Source: Planctomycetota bacterium
GTDB taxonomy: Bacteria > Planctomycetota > MHYJ01 > JACQXL01 > JACQZI01
Assembly: GCA_016207825.1 (NCBI GenBank)
Contig: JACQZI010000007.1
Span: forward strand, 62,001-126,000
DNA: 64,000 bases
Reading direction: 5' to 3'
This document shows positions 13,625 to 62,478 of this stretch, one piece after another (within the stretch, counting starts at the first letter, position 1; each line of letters opens with the position of its first letter). A model generated the notes under the pieces. The model saw nothing but the letters and a program-made list of their open reading frames with translations. It did no database searches and was not told where the DNA came from. The translations under genes and the position numbers were made by a program.

Positions 13625-14617
13625 TCATACTTTTATTGCCACCTGAACATCCAAATGCATATCCACCAAAATGGATTGACCGAATCTCCCGATAAAATCC
13701 GCAGGTTTTTCAGCGTAAGCCAAAGACACTGGCTCTATTGTGTTAGCATCTTTCCCCAAAAAATACCGCCGGATCTGATTTCGGATAGCTGTAAGCGCTG
13801 AGCTATTCTTAAACTCCGCTGTTTTCTCATGCACAATAAAGGAAAGATGGGATGAACCACCGCTTTGAAAAGATGCTATATCTACATTTCTATAAGAATC
13901 AATTAACTGATTGGTCCGGTCATTTTCCCGGCTGACCGCCTCCGGGGCGTAATTAGCCGTTTGGATATTGCTGACAGCTCTTCTCAAGCGTGTCCGCAGC
14001 TCTACCTGAAATTTCCGTAATCGGCTGGGGCGTGTAATTAAACATGGCTGGCCTTTGATTAGCCGGTCTTGCTTGCGGAGATATTCCGGAGTAAGCACAT
14101 CACCAGATAACCAACTAATAATAATACTCAATGCTGATTTTCCCGTATAAGGATTAATCGCCAAAAGGTTCGGGCTGGGATTGAGCGCTCCTGCCAGAAC
14201 CCAAGGGCCAAAACTCATTTTTTCCGTATAATCCACCGCGCTGATTGGTAATGATGCTTTGATATATTCTGCAGGAATGCCGTTTCTACCCTGATATTTC
14301 ATCTCAGCGTGCTTTTGATATCGCTTAGCCGCGTCAGCGCTTTTTATCCCATATGAATGTTTCAAAATAATCTCGCGGGCATCCAATTCACTTCTGCTGA
14401 TAAACTTAGGATTAAGGAATTTAGGAAACACTTTCAGGAGCGGGTTGGCTACTTTCCGGCGGTAAGCCTTCAAGTCAGGAATGGCTTCTTTGCGTGCTTC
14501 GTTGATATAGGCTACGCGGTTATAATAGCCCCGCATCCATTTCAAAGCGAGGCTTAAGGGATAGAAATTATATCCCGGTATAAAGACCATAACTCTCGTA
14601 AGTACTTTATCTGCCAT
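13625..14617 (-). CDS. unknown-family protein with SREND and GGxSHL motifs (copy 1)
   Basis: I do not recognise this 330-aa protein. It has no signal peptide or clear membrane helix. Conserved pieces shared with the protein at 39787-40590 are KVL..VMVFIPG at the N-terminus, INEARKEAIPD (residues 38-48), SRENDRTNQLID (229-240) and FQSGGSSHLSF (250-260). The two are therefore paralogues over most of their length. This copy has about 60 extra C-terminal residues. It is preceded by an array of 22-bp repeats (14650-14979) and is inserted between surface-sugar genes, with base use unlike its AT-rich neighbours. It looks like a separate module placed into the operon. The function is unknown, and nothing suggests a carbohydrate enzyme. 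Confidence 0.75.
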   Translation of the reverse strand: MADKVLTRVMVFIPGYNFYPLSLALKWMRGYYNRVAYINEARKEAIPDLKAYRRKVANPLLKVFPKFLNPKFISRSELDAREIILKHSYGIKSADAAKRYQKHAEMKYQGRNGIPAEYIKASLPISAVDYTEKMSFGPWVLAGALNPSPNLLAINPYTGKSALSIIISWLSGDVLTPEYLRKQDRLIKGQPCLITRPSRLRKFQVELRTRLRRAVSNIQTANYAPEAVSRENDRTNQLIDSYRNVDIASFQSGGSSHLSFIVHEKTAEFKNSSALTAIRNQIRRYFLGKDANTIEPVSLAYAEKPADFIGRFGQSILVDMHLDVQVAIKV

Positions 14618-14649
14618 ATATACTTTCCGGCATATGGAGGGGGATAGGG

Positions 14650-14979
14650 TATATGGGTAGCCTACCCCCTGCCATATCTCCGACTACCCTTTGATATTGG
14701 GGATACCCCCCATCAAAAATGGGGCTACCACCCCTAAAGACTACGGATATTATCCCGAAAGGCTGGCAGTAGGTATAATAAAGATTAGAGATAGCCCTCC
14801 TAATGACTACAGGTAATGCGGCTAAGGACAGCGGGTAATAGTTCCAAGCGCAGGGAGTAATACCCTCAAGTGTGTAACGTAGCCTCTTTGTGGACAGAAA
14901 GTAGCCCCCGTCAGGGCTGGGCGCATCCCCTCTAATCCCAAGACTATCACCCCCTGCTGACCGGGGATCCCTCACGCCA
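14650..14979. repeat. array of 15 degenerate 22-bp repeats with palindromic cores
   Basis: The stretch divides exactly into 15 units of 22 bp with no indel. On the plus strand most units follow the pattern: variable 5-6 bases, GGG, TA or TA-like centre, CCC, then CTAA or TCAA at the end. Many centres are palindromic, for example GGGTAGCCTACCC (14655-14667), GGATATTATCC (14744-14754) and GGGATCCC (14964-14971). Units differ from each other in sequence but keep the centre. This fills the only gap of more than 300 bp in the sugar operon (14618-15009). A further partial unit may lie on each side. The period is not a multiple of three, so this is not coding sequence. Confidence 0.8.
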
Positions 14980-15009
14980 GAGAGTGCCCAAAAGTTACTA
15001 TTAATTTGT

Positions 15010-15471
15010 TTACGTTCTTCTGTATTCATAAATTAACTTCCGAGGAGTCTCCTCTTTTAAGACATATCCGGCGCGGGAAAAAACCTTGCTGGACGCAATA
15101 TTATCTTTTTTGATTTCCGCAATAATAGGCTTAGTCGTTTTAGTTTCAGTCATTACTTTTTCTGTACCCAGACTAATAATCTTTGCACCTACACCTTTAC
15201 CGATAAATTTCGGATTAAGATTAACACTTACCTTAACAACTGGCCCTCCTGTCTCAAACCTAATAACCCCGATTTTATTACGTGCCCGGCGAGCCAGATA
15301 CATTTTAGTCGCAGGGTCTAATAGTTTAGAATAAAACCATTTTTTATGTTCTCTCCATAGAATAGGCCTTTGGCTAAAAAAGTTTTTCCTGACCCGAAAG
15401 AAACTTCTCCATAACCATAAATCCTTACAATCTTTTTCATTCACAGTTTTTAATATAATCAATTGATTCAT
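15010..15471 (-). CDS. GNAT-family N-acetyltransferase
   Basis: A 153-aa GNAT fold protein. The N-terminal VNEKDCKDLWLWR and the middle WREHKKWFYSKL match the PseH/RimJ-like branch. VNLNPKFIGKGVGAKII is the acetyl-CoA-binding motif A (variant of Q/RxxGxG/A), and SSKVFSRAGY is motif B. In pseudaminic acid synthesis PseH acetylates the 4-amino group of the PseC product. This gene and the one at 22579-23133 are both candidates. The stop-start overlap with the PIG-L gene (4 bp) places it in the operon. The repeat array begins immediately downstream. Confidence 0.8.
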   Translation of the reverse strand: MNQLIILKTVNEKDCKDLWLWRSFFRVRKNFFSQRPILWREHKKWFYSKLLDPATKMYLARRARNKIGVIRFETGGPVVKVSVNLNPKFIGKGVGAKIISLGTEKVMTETKTTKPIIAEIKKDNIASSKVFSRAGYVLKEETPRKLIYEYRRT

Positions 15472-39539: not shown

Positions 39540-39786
39540 AGCCGGCTATCCTGTAAGAAATCTGAGAAATTTTCAGATATTTATACGATTTTCTGTAACA
39601 TTTGCCTCACTCCTGCATTTACTTATGGAGGGAGAGAAGAGGCTTACTATGTAAAAAACAGGTGGTTTTTAAGAGTTTCCTGTGACATGTACCCTGCTTC
39701 CTTATTTATTAATGGAGGGGGAGAGGAAGTGAATTGGTTAAATAGTTAATTAGTAGTTAAGAAAACGATGAAAGGAGGTGATAAAT
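39540..39786 (+). other. leader region between repeat array and unknown-family gene
   Basis: No gene is seen here. An imperfect direct repeat of about 26 bp (around ATGGAGGG, 39617-39640 and 39704-39729) is spaced by about 87 bp, and there is a small inverted repeat ATCTGA/TCAGAT near 39561-39579. No strong sigma-70 promoter is obvious. The end of the region holds AAAGGAGGTGA, a complete match to the anti-Shine-Dalgarno, just before the ATG at 39787, so the gene should be translated very efficiently. Confidence 0.5.
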
Positions 39787-40590
39787 ATGAGTAAGGTTAT
39801 TTCAGCCATAGACCTATGGATACCGGCGCATGTGCCGCCCAAACCGGATATGAGCGATAAGTGGGAACAGGTTTTCTATGCGGTTGCCCGGATTATCAAC
39901 CAGCGCCGTAAAGAGAAAATACCGGATGAAAGCGCTTTTAACGACAAGCTGGCAGAACCGGCCATCCAGGCATGGAACGGTTTCTGGCAACACGTTGACG
40001 CGTCTTTCCGCTCCAAGCACGGCAGGACCGCGGCGGATATCAGGCACAAGCATAATACGAACCTGCAAGGCGCTTATAACAAATGGAACAATAAGCTTGA
40101 TTATGTCTTTGGTACCGTTGACGGGATTGAGGCGAAAGAGTTTAAAAGGCGGATTACGGAAACCAAAGGCAACTGGGCTCAAGGCATTGGCTACGGGATA
40201 CTGCGACTGACCGGGGATAAAATCCGGGGAAAGGGCGCGGCGACCATTGCCACCTATTGGTTAATCGGCGAGCCGACCACAGTCGGCATGGTGCGCGAGC
40301 AGGATACCGGACTGCAAGGCGGCCCGTATCAGATTTGCCCGGATGAGTTTATTCAGGCATTCCAATCAGCCCTGATGGAAAGGCTGATTCAGGCCGGGAT
40401 GAAAATCTTCCAGAGCAGATACGACGCGTCGGTTATCAGCCGGGAAAACGACGTGACCAATCTTCTGGTGGATAAGTTTGTGGATAGTGGATTGTCACTG
40501 GCGGGTTTTTCCACGGGAGGCGCTTCGCACCTTGATTTTGTCAAGGAAGGCGCGCTCCTGAAGCTTTCGCTGGCGGTATCGCAGATGTAA
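39787..40590 (+). CDS. unknown-family protein with SREND and GGxSHL motifs (copy 2)
   Basis: A 267-aa protein of unknown function. The ATG at 39787 is chosen because a perfect ribosome site (AGGAGG, 8-bp spacing) precedes it. No signal peptide, membrane helix or known domain is visible. It shares with the 13625-14617 protein the blocks KVISAIDLWIPA, INQRRKEKIPD (residues 37-47), SRENDVTNLLVD (218-229) and FSTGGASHLDF (241-251). The middle is rich in Trp, Lys and Gly (for example KGNWAQGIGYGILRLTGDKIRGKG). Downstream is a terminator shared with the convergent gene, so it is a single-gene unit behind the repeat array. Function unknown. Confidence 0.8.
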   Translation: MSKVISAIDLWIPAHVPPKPDMSDKWEQVFYAVARIINQRRKEKIPDESAFNDKLAEPAIQAWNGFWQHVDASFRSKHGRTAADIRHKHNTNLQGAYNKWNNKLDYVFGTVDGIEAKEFKRRITETKGNWAQGIGYGILRLTGDKIRGKGAATIATYWLIGEPTTVGMVREQDTGLQGGPYQICPDEFIQAFQSALMERLIQAGMKIFQSRYDASVISRENDVTNLLVDKFVDSGLSLAGFSTGGASHLDFVKEGALLKLSLAVSQM

Positions 40591-57858: not shown

Positions 57859-60800
57859 CTAATTCTTCCTCAACGGGAAGCGGCTGACCACCACCGCCTC
57901 CTCCGGCACGATTACCTGGTCGCCCTGGCTCAATTGCCGCTTCTGTTTTTCCGGCTTCTCTTTTTCTATCGGCGGCAAGGGATAAATACGCAGGACCGTC
58001 CCCTTTTTGGCGTCATCCTTGTTATTGACTAGGACCAATCCGGTCTGGACAGTCCCAACTAATGTGCAGGAAGTGACCACGCCCAGGTATTCGCCCCTGC
58101 GGCTGACCACCGGGTCGCCCGGCTTTATCGAACGCGCGCCGGCAGAGGTAATCTGGAACCGGGCAATCCTCCGCTTGGTCTTGGCTTCCTTTTCCAGATA
58201 GGCCTTGCGCCCGATAAAGAACGGCTTGTGGCGCTTGACAAACGAGCCGTAAACCGCCTCGGTCGGTATTACATTATTGCCTCCGGACAGCTCATGCCCG
58301 TAAAGCGGCAGACCGGCTTCTGTCCTCAATGAATCGCGCGATGCCAGCCCGCATGGCTTTAATCCGAACGGTTTCCCCGCTTCCAAAAGCATCTGCCAGA
58401 GTTTTACCGCCTGGTTATAATCCACAAACATCTCAAAGCCGATGTCTTCTCCGGTGTATCCGGTCCGCGCCGGGGTTATCTTTACGCCGCCTTTCAGCAT
58501 AAAATCGGCGAATGAAGAACGCTTAAGATGCACCAGCCGCTCCTTGTCCTTCTCGCTTTCCATCAAAGACTGCAGAATCTGTATCGAGTTCTTTCCCTGC
58601 AGAGCGATATTGGTCAGTTTTCCGTCCCGTAAATCGGCAAGCTGAACCGTTCCTTCCAGCTCCATATTCGGGTTATCGCGGTCGATTATCACCTTGCGCT
58701 CATTTACCGCTTTGAACCACTGCATAATCTTTTCCGCATTGGAGGCATTGACCACTATAATGTAATAATCCTCTTTGACCTTGTAAAGGAAGGCATCATC
58801 CAGCACATCCCCGTCCGGAGAAAGTATGTAAGAATAATGCGCCTGGCCATTACGCATCTTCGGTACGTAATTAGTCGTTACCAAATCCAGGAACCTCGTG
58901 GCATAGGGTCCTTTGATTTCAATCTTCCCCATATGGGAAACGTCAAAGAGCCCGGCCGCCTCGCGGACTGCTTGGTGCTCTTCGCTCGCGCGCGTGTACC
59001 AGACCGGCATGGACCATCCGGCAAACGGAATCATAAAGTTCTTCTTGGTAAGCTTGAGGTGCTCCTCATAAAGCGCCGTCTTTCTCTCCCCTTCATAAGG
59101 CTTCTCCTGGAATTCCGACTTTTTACTTGTTACTTGTGACTTGTTACTTTTTATTAGCTCCTTCTGACCGATGAAATAGGGCTTGTTCTCATTAAACATC
59201 AGGTTAACTTTTGCACCCTCAACCCTTAAACTCTTAAACTCTTCATCTCTTAAACTCTTAATGACCACCGGTCCTTCCACTTTTGAATAAATATCCGCCT
59301 CATCAAAGAAGATATAGCCGTCTGACAGGCCCTTTAGCAAGGTCATCAGCTTATCCGCCTTGGAGCCTTCCGGCTTCACGAGATAATGCTGGTAGCCTTC
59401 GGGCGTATCAAGCAGGCGCTGGATGGTGGAATCGGAAATCGTGGCGCCTTTTTCATTAAGGAAGGATGCCGCGACTTCTGCGTTTTCCTTCAACTCATAC
59501 ATATTAATGCCCACCAGGCTCTGCAGGAACGCCGTGGCGCGCTCCCCGATAATTTCTATCGCCTCTGTCTTATGGGCCTTTGAACTGCCGGCTTTATTGA
59601 CCGGGAACTTCCTGGCCAGCTCTTCCACTTCCTTCCGCGCCTCTTCCATTATTTCCAGCTTTATCTTTCCGCGCGTTATCCTGCCGGAAGAACAAATAAT
59701 CTTAAACGGTTTTATATTGGTCAGGACTTTATGGACAATCGCGGCGACCTTTTCCATCTCCGCTTTGCCCATCCCGCGCTGGGAAAGTATCGGCGTCCCC
59801 AAGCGGATGCCTCTGGGCCTGGTGCCGGTCTCGTCTCCCGGCAGGGCGTTTTTATTACAGGTGATTCCGCATAAATCAAGAATGTTGGATGCCACATCGC
59901 CGTCAATGTAAATATCGCCCGGCATTTTGGATAAATCAATCAATAGCAAATGAGAATTCGTCCCGCCGTAGGCAAGCGTAAAGCCGAGCTTCTGGAGCGC
60001 CGCGGCAAGCGCCTGGCAGTTATCCACTATCCGCTTCTGGAGCTCCTTGAATTCCTTGGTCGCGGCAAGCTTGAAAGCGACTGCCTTGGCAAGTATGTTA
60101 TTAAGGTGCGGTCCGCCCTGCTCTCCCGGAAATACGCCGAAATCTATCCGCTTGGCGACTTCTTCGCTGGTGGAAAGGATGATGGCGCCCCTGGGCCCGC
60201 ACATCGTCTTGTGAGTGGTCAGCGTGACGACATCAGCGTGCCCGACCGGATTCGGGAAAAGGCCGGCAACGACCAATCCGGATGGATGCGAGATATCCGC
60301 CAGGAGCACCGCCCCCGGACGGGAGAAATTCGGTATCTGGACCGGCACCGCGCGCGCGATTTCCGCCAGCTTCTTCCAGTCTATTGACCATGGATACGCG
60401 CTCGCCCCGGCGATAATCATCTTTGGCTTGTGCTCCATTGCCAGTTGTCTTATAAGTTCATAATCCATCTTGCCGGTTTTCATATCCACCGTGTACGGCA
60501 CCACTTTATATTGGCGTCCGGAACGGTTAAAAGGGCTTCCGTGGGTCAGGTGCCCGCCGTAGGAAAGCGCCATGCCCATGACTGTATCGCCCGGAACGAC
60601 AAAGGCATTATAGACCGCGTTGTTGGCGGCCGCGCCGGATAATGACTGGACATTCACGGATATCTTATCCGCCGGGACATCGCTCGTGGCGAATATCTCC
60701 GCCGCCCTTCTTTGGGCAAGGACTTCGACGATATTGCAGAATTCCGCGCCCTTGTAAAAACGCCTGTCCCCGTAACGGCGGTGGAAGGCAAGGTAGCGGT

Positions 60801-61086
60801 CGTGGTCTTTATCTATCAGGTTACGCTCGTAGGTAGTCATGCGGATGGAGGGGTAGCCTTCGGCATATTTATTGGAATAAGGGTTATTGAGCGCGTCCAG
60901 CACCGGCTGGGGGCAGATGCTTTCGGAGGCAATCATAATGAGCTTATCCTCCTGCCGTTTGGCCTCTTCGCTTATCAGGGAAGAAACCTCGGCATCCAGC
61001 TTGGAAAGCTCCTCATCAAACAGGAAATTGTCTTTGGTCTTCATGGCTTTTTTTCTCCCGTCAATTCGTTGCGTTGTTGATTCCAT
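57859..61086 (-). CDS. fused serine hydroxymethyltransferase-aminomethyltransferase (GlyA-GcvT)
   Basis: A 1075-aa protein; the start at 61086 has AGGAG 7 bp upstream. Residues ~15-500 are SHMT (LIASES-like IMIASESICPQPV, KYAEGYPS, PLP lysine in TTHKTMCGPRG at K293). Residues ~505-640 are a partial GcvT-like segment (IEIIGERATAFLQSLVG). Residues ~660-1075 are a full aminomethyltransferase (FAGWSMPVWY, EAAGLFDVSHMG, ARTGYTGEDIGFEMF, SRDSLRTEAGLPLYGHEL). Both use tetrahydrofolate: SHMT interconverts serine and glycine, and GcvT passes the glycine methylene to THF. Fusion would channel C1 units. Two linkers carry short repeats. Other glycine-cleavage genes are not in the window. Confidence 0.92.
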   Translation of the reverse strand: MESTTQRIDGRKKAMKTKDNFLFDEELSKLDAEVSSLISEEAKRQEDKLIMIASESICPQPVLDALNNPYSNKYAEGYPSIRMTTYERNLIDKDHDRYLAFHRRYGDRRFYKGAEFCNIVEVLAQRRAAEIFATSDVPADKISVNVQSLSGAAANNAVYNAFVVPGDTVMGMALSYGGHLTHGSPFNRSGRQYKVVPYTVDMKTGKMDYELIRQLAMEHKPKMIIAGASAYPWSIDWKKLAEIARAVPVQIPNFSRPGAVLLADISHPSGLVVAGLFPNPVGHADVVTLTTHKTMCGPRGAIILSTSEEVAKRIDFGVFPGEQGGPHLNNILAKAVAFKLAATKEFKELQKRIVDNCQALAAALQKLGFTLAYGGTNSHLLLIDLSKMPGDIYIDGDVASNILDLCGITCNKNALPGDETGTRPRGIRLGTPILSQRGMGKAEMEKVAAIVHKVLTNIKPFKIICSSGRITRGKIKLEIMEEARKEVEELARKFPVNKAGSSKAHKTEAIEIIGERATAFLQSLVGINMYELKENAEVAASFLNEKGATISDSTIQRLLDTPEGYQHYLVKPEGSKADKLMTLLKGLSDGYIFFDEADIYSKVEGPVVIKSLRDEEFKSLRVEGAKVNLMFNENKPYFIGQKELIKSNKSQVTSKKSEFQEKPYEGERKTALYEEHLKLTKKNFMIPFAGWSMPVWYTRASEEHQAVREAAGLFDVSHMGKIEIKGPYATRFLDLVTTNYVPKMRNGQAHYSYILSPDGDVLDDAFLYKVKEDYYIIVVNASNAEKIMQWFKAVNERKVIIDRDNPNMELEGTVQLADLRDGKLTNIALQGKNSIQILQSLMESEKDKERLVHLKRSSFADFMLKGGVKITPARTGYTGEDIGFEMFVDYNQAVKLWQMLLEAGKPFGLKPCGLASRDSLRTEAGLPLYGHELSGGNNVIPTEAVYGSFVKRHKPFFIGRKAYLEKEAKTKRRIARFQITSAGARSIKPGDPVVSRRGEYLGVVTSCTLVGTVQTGLVLVNNKDDAKKGTVLRIYPLPPIEKEKPEKQKRQLSQGDQVIVPEEAVVVSRFPLRKN
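59119..59154. repeat. short repeat tract in the GlyA-GcvT linker (ACTTGTTA units)
   Basis: ACTTTTTACTTGTTACTTG and TGACTTGTTACTTTTTA are degenerate 7-8-bp repeats. On the coding strand they specify SNKSQVTSKKSE, just before the GcvT domain. Confidence 0.6.
59221..59261. repeat. short repeat tract in the GlyA-GcvT linker (CTTAAACT units)
   Basis: ACCCTTAAACTCTTAAACTC and TTCATCTCTTAAACTCTTAA are degenerate 9-bp repeats coding for IKSLRDEEFKSLRVEG, between the partial and full GcvT parts. Confidence 0.6.
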
Positions 61087-61910: not shown

Positions 61911-62080
61911 AAATGACTCTTTTGTAGTCAGTGACTCTAGGTGAGTGCCTCACACCGCCCGATAAAAACCGCTGTTTTCTTCCCCCCTGTTGGCACCTTT
62001 GAGGACCCAATTATCTCCTCCGAAGGGGTTTTTACTACCTTGAAGGGGGTTTTTACCCGCCCATAAGGGCGATATTTCCC
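61911..62080. other. gap before the 21-bp arrays: irregular repeats, no gene
   Basis: No coding potential is seen. From about 61990 to 62078 there are irregular units of 20-22 bp around GAAGGGG..TTTTTAC (GAAGGGG at 62022 and 62042) and CGCCCATAAGGGCG, which look like a more degenerate start of the adjacent arrays. Confidence 0.5.
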
Positions 62081-62081
62081 T

Positions 62082-62203
62082 GAATATAACCCATATTCAC
62101 TGGAATATGACTCATATTCACCGGAATATAACCTGTATTCACTGGAATATAACTTATATTCACCTAAATATAGCTTATATTCACTCCCCTTCGGCTTATA
62201 TTT
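62082..62203. repeat. 21-bp palindromic array A (GAATAT-N5-ATATTC)
   Basis: GAATAT (or AAATAT) begins at 62082, 62103, 62124, 62145 and 62166, and ATATTC (or close) at 62093, 62114, 62135, 62156, 62177 and 62198: a strict 21-bp period over about 5.5 units. Each unit is a 17-bp inverted repeat GAATATnnnnnATATTC with a 4-bp spacer ACTG or ACCG. Confidence 0.88.
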
Positions 62204-62221
62204 ACTTCCCTACAACTCGTA

Positions 62222-62441
62222 GGTATGCCCCCAGACTTTGGGGATAGATACCTTTTCTTTTGGGATGAATACCTTTCGCTTTGGTATAAATACCCTTTCA
62301 GTTGGTATCTATACCATTCCTATCGGTATGAATACCTTTTCCGTTGGGATGAATACCTTTCACTCTGGTATGTATACCTTTTCGGTTGGTATCGATACCT
62401 TTTCAATAGGTATGAACACCTTTTTCGTTGGTATGTATCCC
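62222..62441. repeat. 21-bp palindromic array B (GGTATnnATACC), ten units
   Basis: After a half unit at 62222, GGTAT or GGGAT starts at 62241, 62262, 62283, 62304, 62325, 62346, 62367, 62388, 62409 and 62430, exactly 21 bp apart each time. Each unit carries the 12-bp palindrome GGTATnnATACC (two units GGGATnnATACC) followed by a T-rich spacer (CTTTTCnnTT). The two central bases vary freely. Because 21 is a multiple of three, frames stay open and give false 85- and 110-residue readings. Confidence 0.92.
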
Positions 62442-62478
62442 GATACTGCCGCCTCGCTCCCCGCTTGGTTCAGGGAGC

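Follow-up and report, generated by a model that had tools for sequence, protein, structure and literature searches.

The focal region is a degenerate representative of a class of satellites that are polar, intergenic and built of 22-bp units. Each of these arrays may act as a DNA platform with one putatively bound protein per unit, an interpretation to which we give slightly less than an even chance. The region lies in a window of 64,000 nucleotides (the whole stretch of DNA that was analysed; C7:62001-126000) of a groundwater planctomycete's 2.89-Mb genome in 42 contigs, of which 2.42 Mb (84%) was scanned, with plain ORFs serving as gene calls. The favoured reading of the focal copy itself is that it is an old, eroded member of the class, situated in front of a gene of a paralogous family designated fam330.

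Period, extent and surroundings of the focal array

The focal region was examined by autocorrelation against dinucleotide shuffles. Over window positions 14650-14979 the match at a lag of 22 was 0.484, compared with 0.249 in shuffled sequences (z 9.1), and the higher multiples were also periodic (lag 44, 0.423, z 6.3; lag 66, 0.436, z 6.7; shuffles about 0.25); across lags of 10 to 59, none of 1000 shuffles reached the focal match at lag 22. An exact 22-bp period with drifting sequence, which a sequence-only reading of this DNA had described, is thus confirmed. That reading also counted fifteen units over 330 bp, of which the period stands but the count does not, approximately 10 to 12 units being recognisable by leave-one-out scoring. 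The fit was p<=0.03 in 10 of 11 core units (14694-14935), the exception being the unit at 14870 (p 0.12), and no fit to the focal unit pattern was obtained for rows 14650, 14672 and 14936 (p 0.29-0.38). The genome-wide period scan called the array at C7:76662-76944 (window 14662-14944). On the + strand the core has the loose consensus ...C......TA...CC..TAA; the polarity of the array (- strand) was assigned by the motif at its terminus (Table 1), which was caught by an earlier scan for array-end patterns and missed by a later expression.

Table 1. Features at and around the focal array (window coordinates)
Feature	Position	Strand	Evidence and remarks
fam330 gene directly behind the array, 330 aa	13625..14617	-	No Pfam/NCBIfam match; 36-member family; tree
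One-sided terminal G/C motif, gene-proximal array end	14638..14671	-	CAGGGGGTAGGCTACCC then ATATACCCTATCCCCCTCC; array-end pattern scan
22-bp array core	14694..14935	-	11 degenerate units; leave-one-out scores, lag-22 autocorrelation, genome scan
Weak isolated unit, far end of array	14958..14979	-	p 0.006; neighbour at 14936 misfits
GNAT acetyltransferase gene, other side of array	15010..15471	-	Pfam Acetyltransf_3, E 8.7e-9

Standard repeat finders failed to detect the focal array, including TRF, for which this copy is too degenerate, and a hairpin-chain scan, retuned after its first versions had linked chance hairpins, recovered arrays of 21 bp but not the focal one. A search for the same array in five relatives found no match to the DNA of the focal locus. 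The units are contiguous and degenerate along their whole length rather than identical repeats with unique spacers, so the array is not a CRISPR, and the earlier view that it is not a recent expansion of one unit was likewise borne out. The GNAT gene on the far side closes a cluster of sugar-modification genes. An overlapping ORF (14607-15029) was rejected as a coding explanation because 22 bp is no multiple of the codon and the ORF has no family match. Phage origin was rejected as well: the array has no match in phage DNA, no viral contig with fam330 was found, and no PHROG corresponds to fam330.

A genome-wide class of polar 22-bp arrays

The lag-period scan of 2.42 Mb identified 57 loci with a period of 22 bp, 4 of 44 bp and 14 of 21 bp, the remainder being multiples of three, and shuffled sequence yielded no loci of 21, 22 or 44 bp. 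(A 7.8-kb tandem-like or low-complexity stretch at the start of contig C1, C1:2-7759, also emerged from the lag scan and was left out of the counts.) The 61 intergenic arrays of 22 or 44 bp have a median of 12.5 units, with a unit sequence that is particular to each array and largely unrelated to the others. No gene proxy contains a 22-bp array; three arrays do lie in coding sequence, all of them with the 21-bp period. A second genome of this order, assigned to a different family, was scanned over 400 kb and contained 16 arrays with a period of 22/44 bp and 5 with one of 21 bp. The period is common to 61 arrays of unrelated sequence, and the best physical reading remains that of two helical turns per unit with all sites on one face of the DNA, as had been proposed for the focal copy.

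The mean unit is G-rich after its anchor and ends in T/A, without a fixed word. A G-run/C-run motif such as GGGGTAnnnTACCCCC is present at one end of 42 of 69 arrays (61 of this genome and 8 from relatives) and at both ends of none, and some array families whose units differ have a terminal module in common. An exact palindrome, GGGGTANNNTACCCC, was located six times in this genome and six times in the related genome G003, and once among the other 21 genomes searched from this taxonomic class. Where linked loci can be oriented, the terminal motif is mostly proximal to the gene, as it is at the focal locus, with exceptions on contig C8; the orientation of arrays is not strictly bound to the gene.

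Co-inheritance with clades of the fam330 family

The part of the genome that was read encodes 36 divergent fam330 paralogs, without match to Pfam, NCBIfam or a known fold; named relatives belong to the Planctomycetota, where some bear the label Brocadiia or Brocadiaceae and some are isolates from groundwater. A 22-bp array is located within 300 bp upstream of 11 of the 36 genes (p 1.6e-12). On a tree of 57 proteins, upstream arrays are found in 5/5 members of the focal clade, in 9/11 of a second group (the other two being at contig ends) that is weakly supported (80/20) with firm subgroups, and in 3/41 elsewhere; thus, all 14 assessable members of two clades, across genera, have an array. Labels of array presence change 5 times on the tree as against 14.7 when shuffled, and no shuffle of 500 was as low. 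The orthologs of the focal gene in G003 and G007 are also preceded by 22-bp arrays, and the arrays of fam330 relatives have units with unrelated sequences (compare ATAGGGGGTATCCCGATACGAC, TATGGGATTGTGCGATACCGGG and TGGACTACTGACCGGCGAGGGG). Position and period are therefore inherited while unit sequence is not, which is the strongest argument against neutral decay.

Four fam330 paralogs appear by eye to be fused behind a trypsin-like serine-protease domain (loci given: window 39778-40590 on the + strand, C5:114482, C23:118582, C23:168969 and C27:41156).

Stand-alone HTH proteins as candidate binders

Clustering of array-side genes indicated one further family enriched for the 22-bp class, consisting of stand-alone HTH proteins of about 145-169 aa. 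Eight such ORFs were counted, including an 87-aa fragment, and 7 of them, for instance that at C10:115255, are preceded by a 22-bp array at a distance of no more than 520 bp (p 1.2e-11, for an association spotted and tested in the same genome); a broken copy (C7:176932) follows the array at C7:175844-176424 by about 0.5 kb. The only intact member without a detectable array (C17:626) has a terminal-type motif, GGGGTACCCCTACCCCC, upstream at C17:140-165, which may be what is left of a lost array or may reflect an assembly break. Intact HTH genes are also present in G003 (C18:29070, C33:110241 and C26:25440) and G007 (C75:18492 and C75:20789). Similarity of these proteins to the IS630 transposase model is confined to its DNA-binding part (model positions about 2-107 of 299), and they also match HTH_23/29/32/33; a domain search of the genome found no DDE_3 or IS630 DDE domain. 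The predicted structure (pLDDT 82) has a weak similarity to the end-binding domains of TnsB, of SETMAR/Mos1 and of Pax, and a still weaker one to CENP-B (E 0.06-2.4). Domains of the TnsB/SETMAR/Pax/CENP-B type contact sites of roughly 17-22 bp, which would fit one HTH protein per 22-bp unit. There is no HTH gene beside the focal array, and about 40 of the 61 arrays have no gene of the linked families nearby.

Symmetry and folding of the 22-bp arrays

The conserved palindromic centre that the sequence-only reading had seen in the focal units did not withstand testing: the best symmetry axis gave p 0.61 against column-wise shuffles, in which columns are shuffled among units as a test of covariation, and p 0.27 against shuffled column order, a test of palindromic arrangement. 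By the first of these tests, compensatory change within units was equally unsupported. Among the sequences cited for it, GGGTAGCCTACCC is the terminal motif beside the array, and GGATATTATCC and GGGATCCC are isolated palindromes, the latter in a marginal unit. In the permutation test the 22-bp class as a whole is not palindromic (p<0.05 in 5/61 arrays, where some 3 would be expected; mean z 0.06). A first count of covariation (z 12), in which axes had been picked post hoc and two classes mixed, is superseded by the permutation test. Folding of the focal array by RNAfold resembled that of shuffled sequence on both strands (z -0.33 and -0.47), and an Rfam search of the window returned only a tRNA, the array being without match.

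A possible role at the DNA level

The best promoter-like sequence is situated between the array and the gene at several of the linked loci, and ahead of the array at others (C10:146931 and C27:7021); a universal promoter preceding the arrays was rejected, oriented 5' flanks being no better than controls. Since promoter-like sites occur on either side, a role in leader RNA is not general, and this placement and the lack of folding both favour DNA as the level at which the arrays act. Selection would act on the spacing because the array would work as double-stranded DNA: with sites two helical turns apart, one protein per unit could be aligned on one face of the DNA, forming a row near the promoter region of the linked gene, of which the terminal motif may mark the boundary. 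The likeliest binders would be the stand-alone IS630-type proteins with their bipartite HTH domain, whose own genes are also behind arrays. Each might recognise its own variant of the site, which would explain why arrays vary in sequence and not in unit length.

An extension of this model, speculative and itself unlikely, is that the bacterial lineage has many orthogonal pairs, in each of which a domesticated DNA-binding domain of IS630 type is matched with a 22-bp satellite of its own, as a prokaryotic counterpart of CENP-B and alpha satellite. A footprint on two turns would fix the unit length, protein and array would diverge together, and orphan arrays would be dispersed copies.

Dispersal of arrays and alternative explanations

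Several arrays have further copies, 83-96% identical over about 315-345 bp, whose flanks are unrelated. One pair of copies (C10:146931 and C27:7021, 90% over 1.1 kb) includes the gene, with a third, array-only copy at C38:63749; C10:93212 is likewise an array-only copy of a gene-linked array. The copies show duplication and dispersal, with gains and losses of individual units. It is conceivable, if fairly unlikely, that the arrays are selfish or passively mobile satellites, each array being copied as a whole with sharp edges and tolerated between genes, whose spacing and terminal motif serve copying and not the host. Besides the array-only copies, their intergenic location, often between convergent gene pairs (which are over-represented as hosts), and a one-sided terminus like that of a polar element would agree with such an origin. 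No target-site duplication was found at the copies, however, nor a mobilising enzyme: the genome lacks an IS630 DDE domain and has a Y1 transposase domain just once (C32:46583). Co-inheritance with two gene clades (14/14) would also be left unexplained.

A host regulatory or chromosome-structuring array bound by something other than the HTH family, such as a nucleoid protein or the fam330 protein itself, would account for the same facts as the favoured DNA platform, and for the majority of the arrays, which have no HTH gene nearby; polymerisation of nucleoid proteins has been proposed for comparable repeats in the account of Subirana and Messeguer that we draw on (PMC8161180). We regard this as distinctly improbable, one general binder being a poor explanation for a different unit sequence in each array family.

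The strong degeneracy of the focal units (48% identity between adjacent units) and the unit gains and losses between copies are what would be expected of neutral minisatellites that arise by replication slippage and diverge by random decay, but slippage does not set one unit length across 61 unrelated sequences, does not place a terminal motif at one end only, and does not retain arrays with unrelated units upstream of orthologs, so that this origin is very unlikely.

Relation to known repeat systems

In the accounts of Subirana and Messeguer on which we rely, bacterial tandem repeats have a constant size of 20-23 or 52 nt and a variable sequence, several families occur in one species, and the involvement of nucleoid proteins or of small RNAs is proposed (PMC6749651, PMC8161180). 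Their class is also delimited by detection with the SATFIND search, at least 60% of the repeats being equal in length. The present arrays fit this class: the unit length, within 20-23 nt, is near two turns of DNA, and the arrays are non-coding, variable in sequence, represented by several families per genome, and patchy across species. Unlike the repeats as described there, they have a terminal motif on one side, recur as sharp-edged block copies, are co-inherited with clades of genes and are linked to an HTH family; of these features the polarity, terminal motif and gene co-inheritance, together with a candidate binder, appear to be new additions to the published class. Repeats of constant size and changing sequence have, in those accounts, been catalogued without function or binding partner. 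An array that is retained before orthologs despite turnover of its sequence, with a defined end and an HTH family behind such arrays, opens the function to direct testing.

REPs are described in the sources drawn on here as palindromes of 20-40 bp processed by a Y1/HUH enzyme (PMC3733652, PMC8266576). The present arrays are similar to REPs and their TnpA-REP (RAYT) proteins in being dispersed intergenic repeats, in their tie to a transposase-type gene that has become domesticated, and in having orphan copies at other sites. They differ from the REP/REPtron system in not being palindromic (5/61 at p<0.05, about 3 expected) and in having no linked Y1/HUH gene, the single Y1 match (C32:46583-46789) being remote from any detected array.

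The CENP-B box of alpha satellite and the end repeats recognised by TnsB consist of directly repeated sites for a bipartite HTH domain that derives from a transposase. The present arrays resemble satellite systems of the CENP-B type in their linkage to a stand-alone transposase-type DNA-binding domain (7/8 HTH ORFs), the predicted structure of which weakly resembles those of CENP-B and TnsB; unlike alpha satellite, many different arrays are present per genome.

Plasmid iterons are direct, non-palindromic sites spaced about two turns apart. The statement in the sequence-only reading that the focal array is unlike iterons was accordingly too strong, though nothing else about it is plasmid-like. 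Unlike iterons, the arrays are present as dozens of chromosomal copies with unrelated sequences, and no Rep initiator was seen beside them among flanking genes that were clustered into families, some of which were searched against Pfam/NCBIfam.

A separate class of 21-bp arrays

The 14 arrays with a period of 21 bp are different: 7 are palindromic and 7 have within-unit covariation (p<0.05, permutation test). One is in the window (about 61930-62445), with palindromic units GAATATA..TATATTC and then ATACC..GGTAT and a predicted fold of z -6.1. Of the 8 members of a small-protein family that begins MKKDYLP..., 7 have a palindromic 21-bp array just upstream, the linked loci in this genome being C5:1084, C5:24215, C8:105677, C8:292548, C10:33217, C23:18198 and C33:14976; in the stretch of G003, another genus, the sole member (C3:293316) is also behind a 21-bp array. 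The view that the focal region is an array of RNA hairpins maintained by compensatory changes is thus true in form for the 21-bp class, but is extremely improbable for the 22-bp class and the focal array, which have no symmetry, covariation or fold, and even in the gene-linked 21-bp arrays sense-strand G.T and A.C mismatches are about equally frequent (23 vs 27), an absence of G.T excess that gives no pointer to RNA. Also in the window, at 57859-61086 on the - strand, is a 1075-aa ORF that appears by eye to encode a fusion of serine hydroxymethyltransferase with the T-protein of glycine cleavage.
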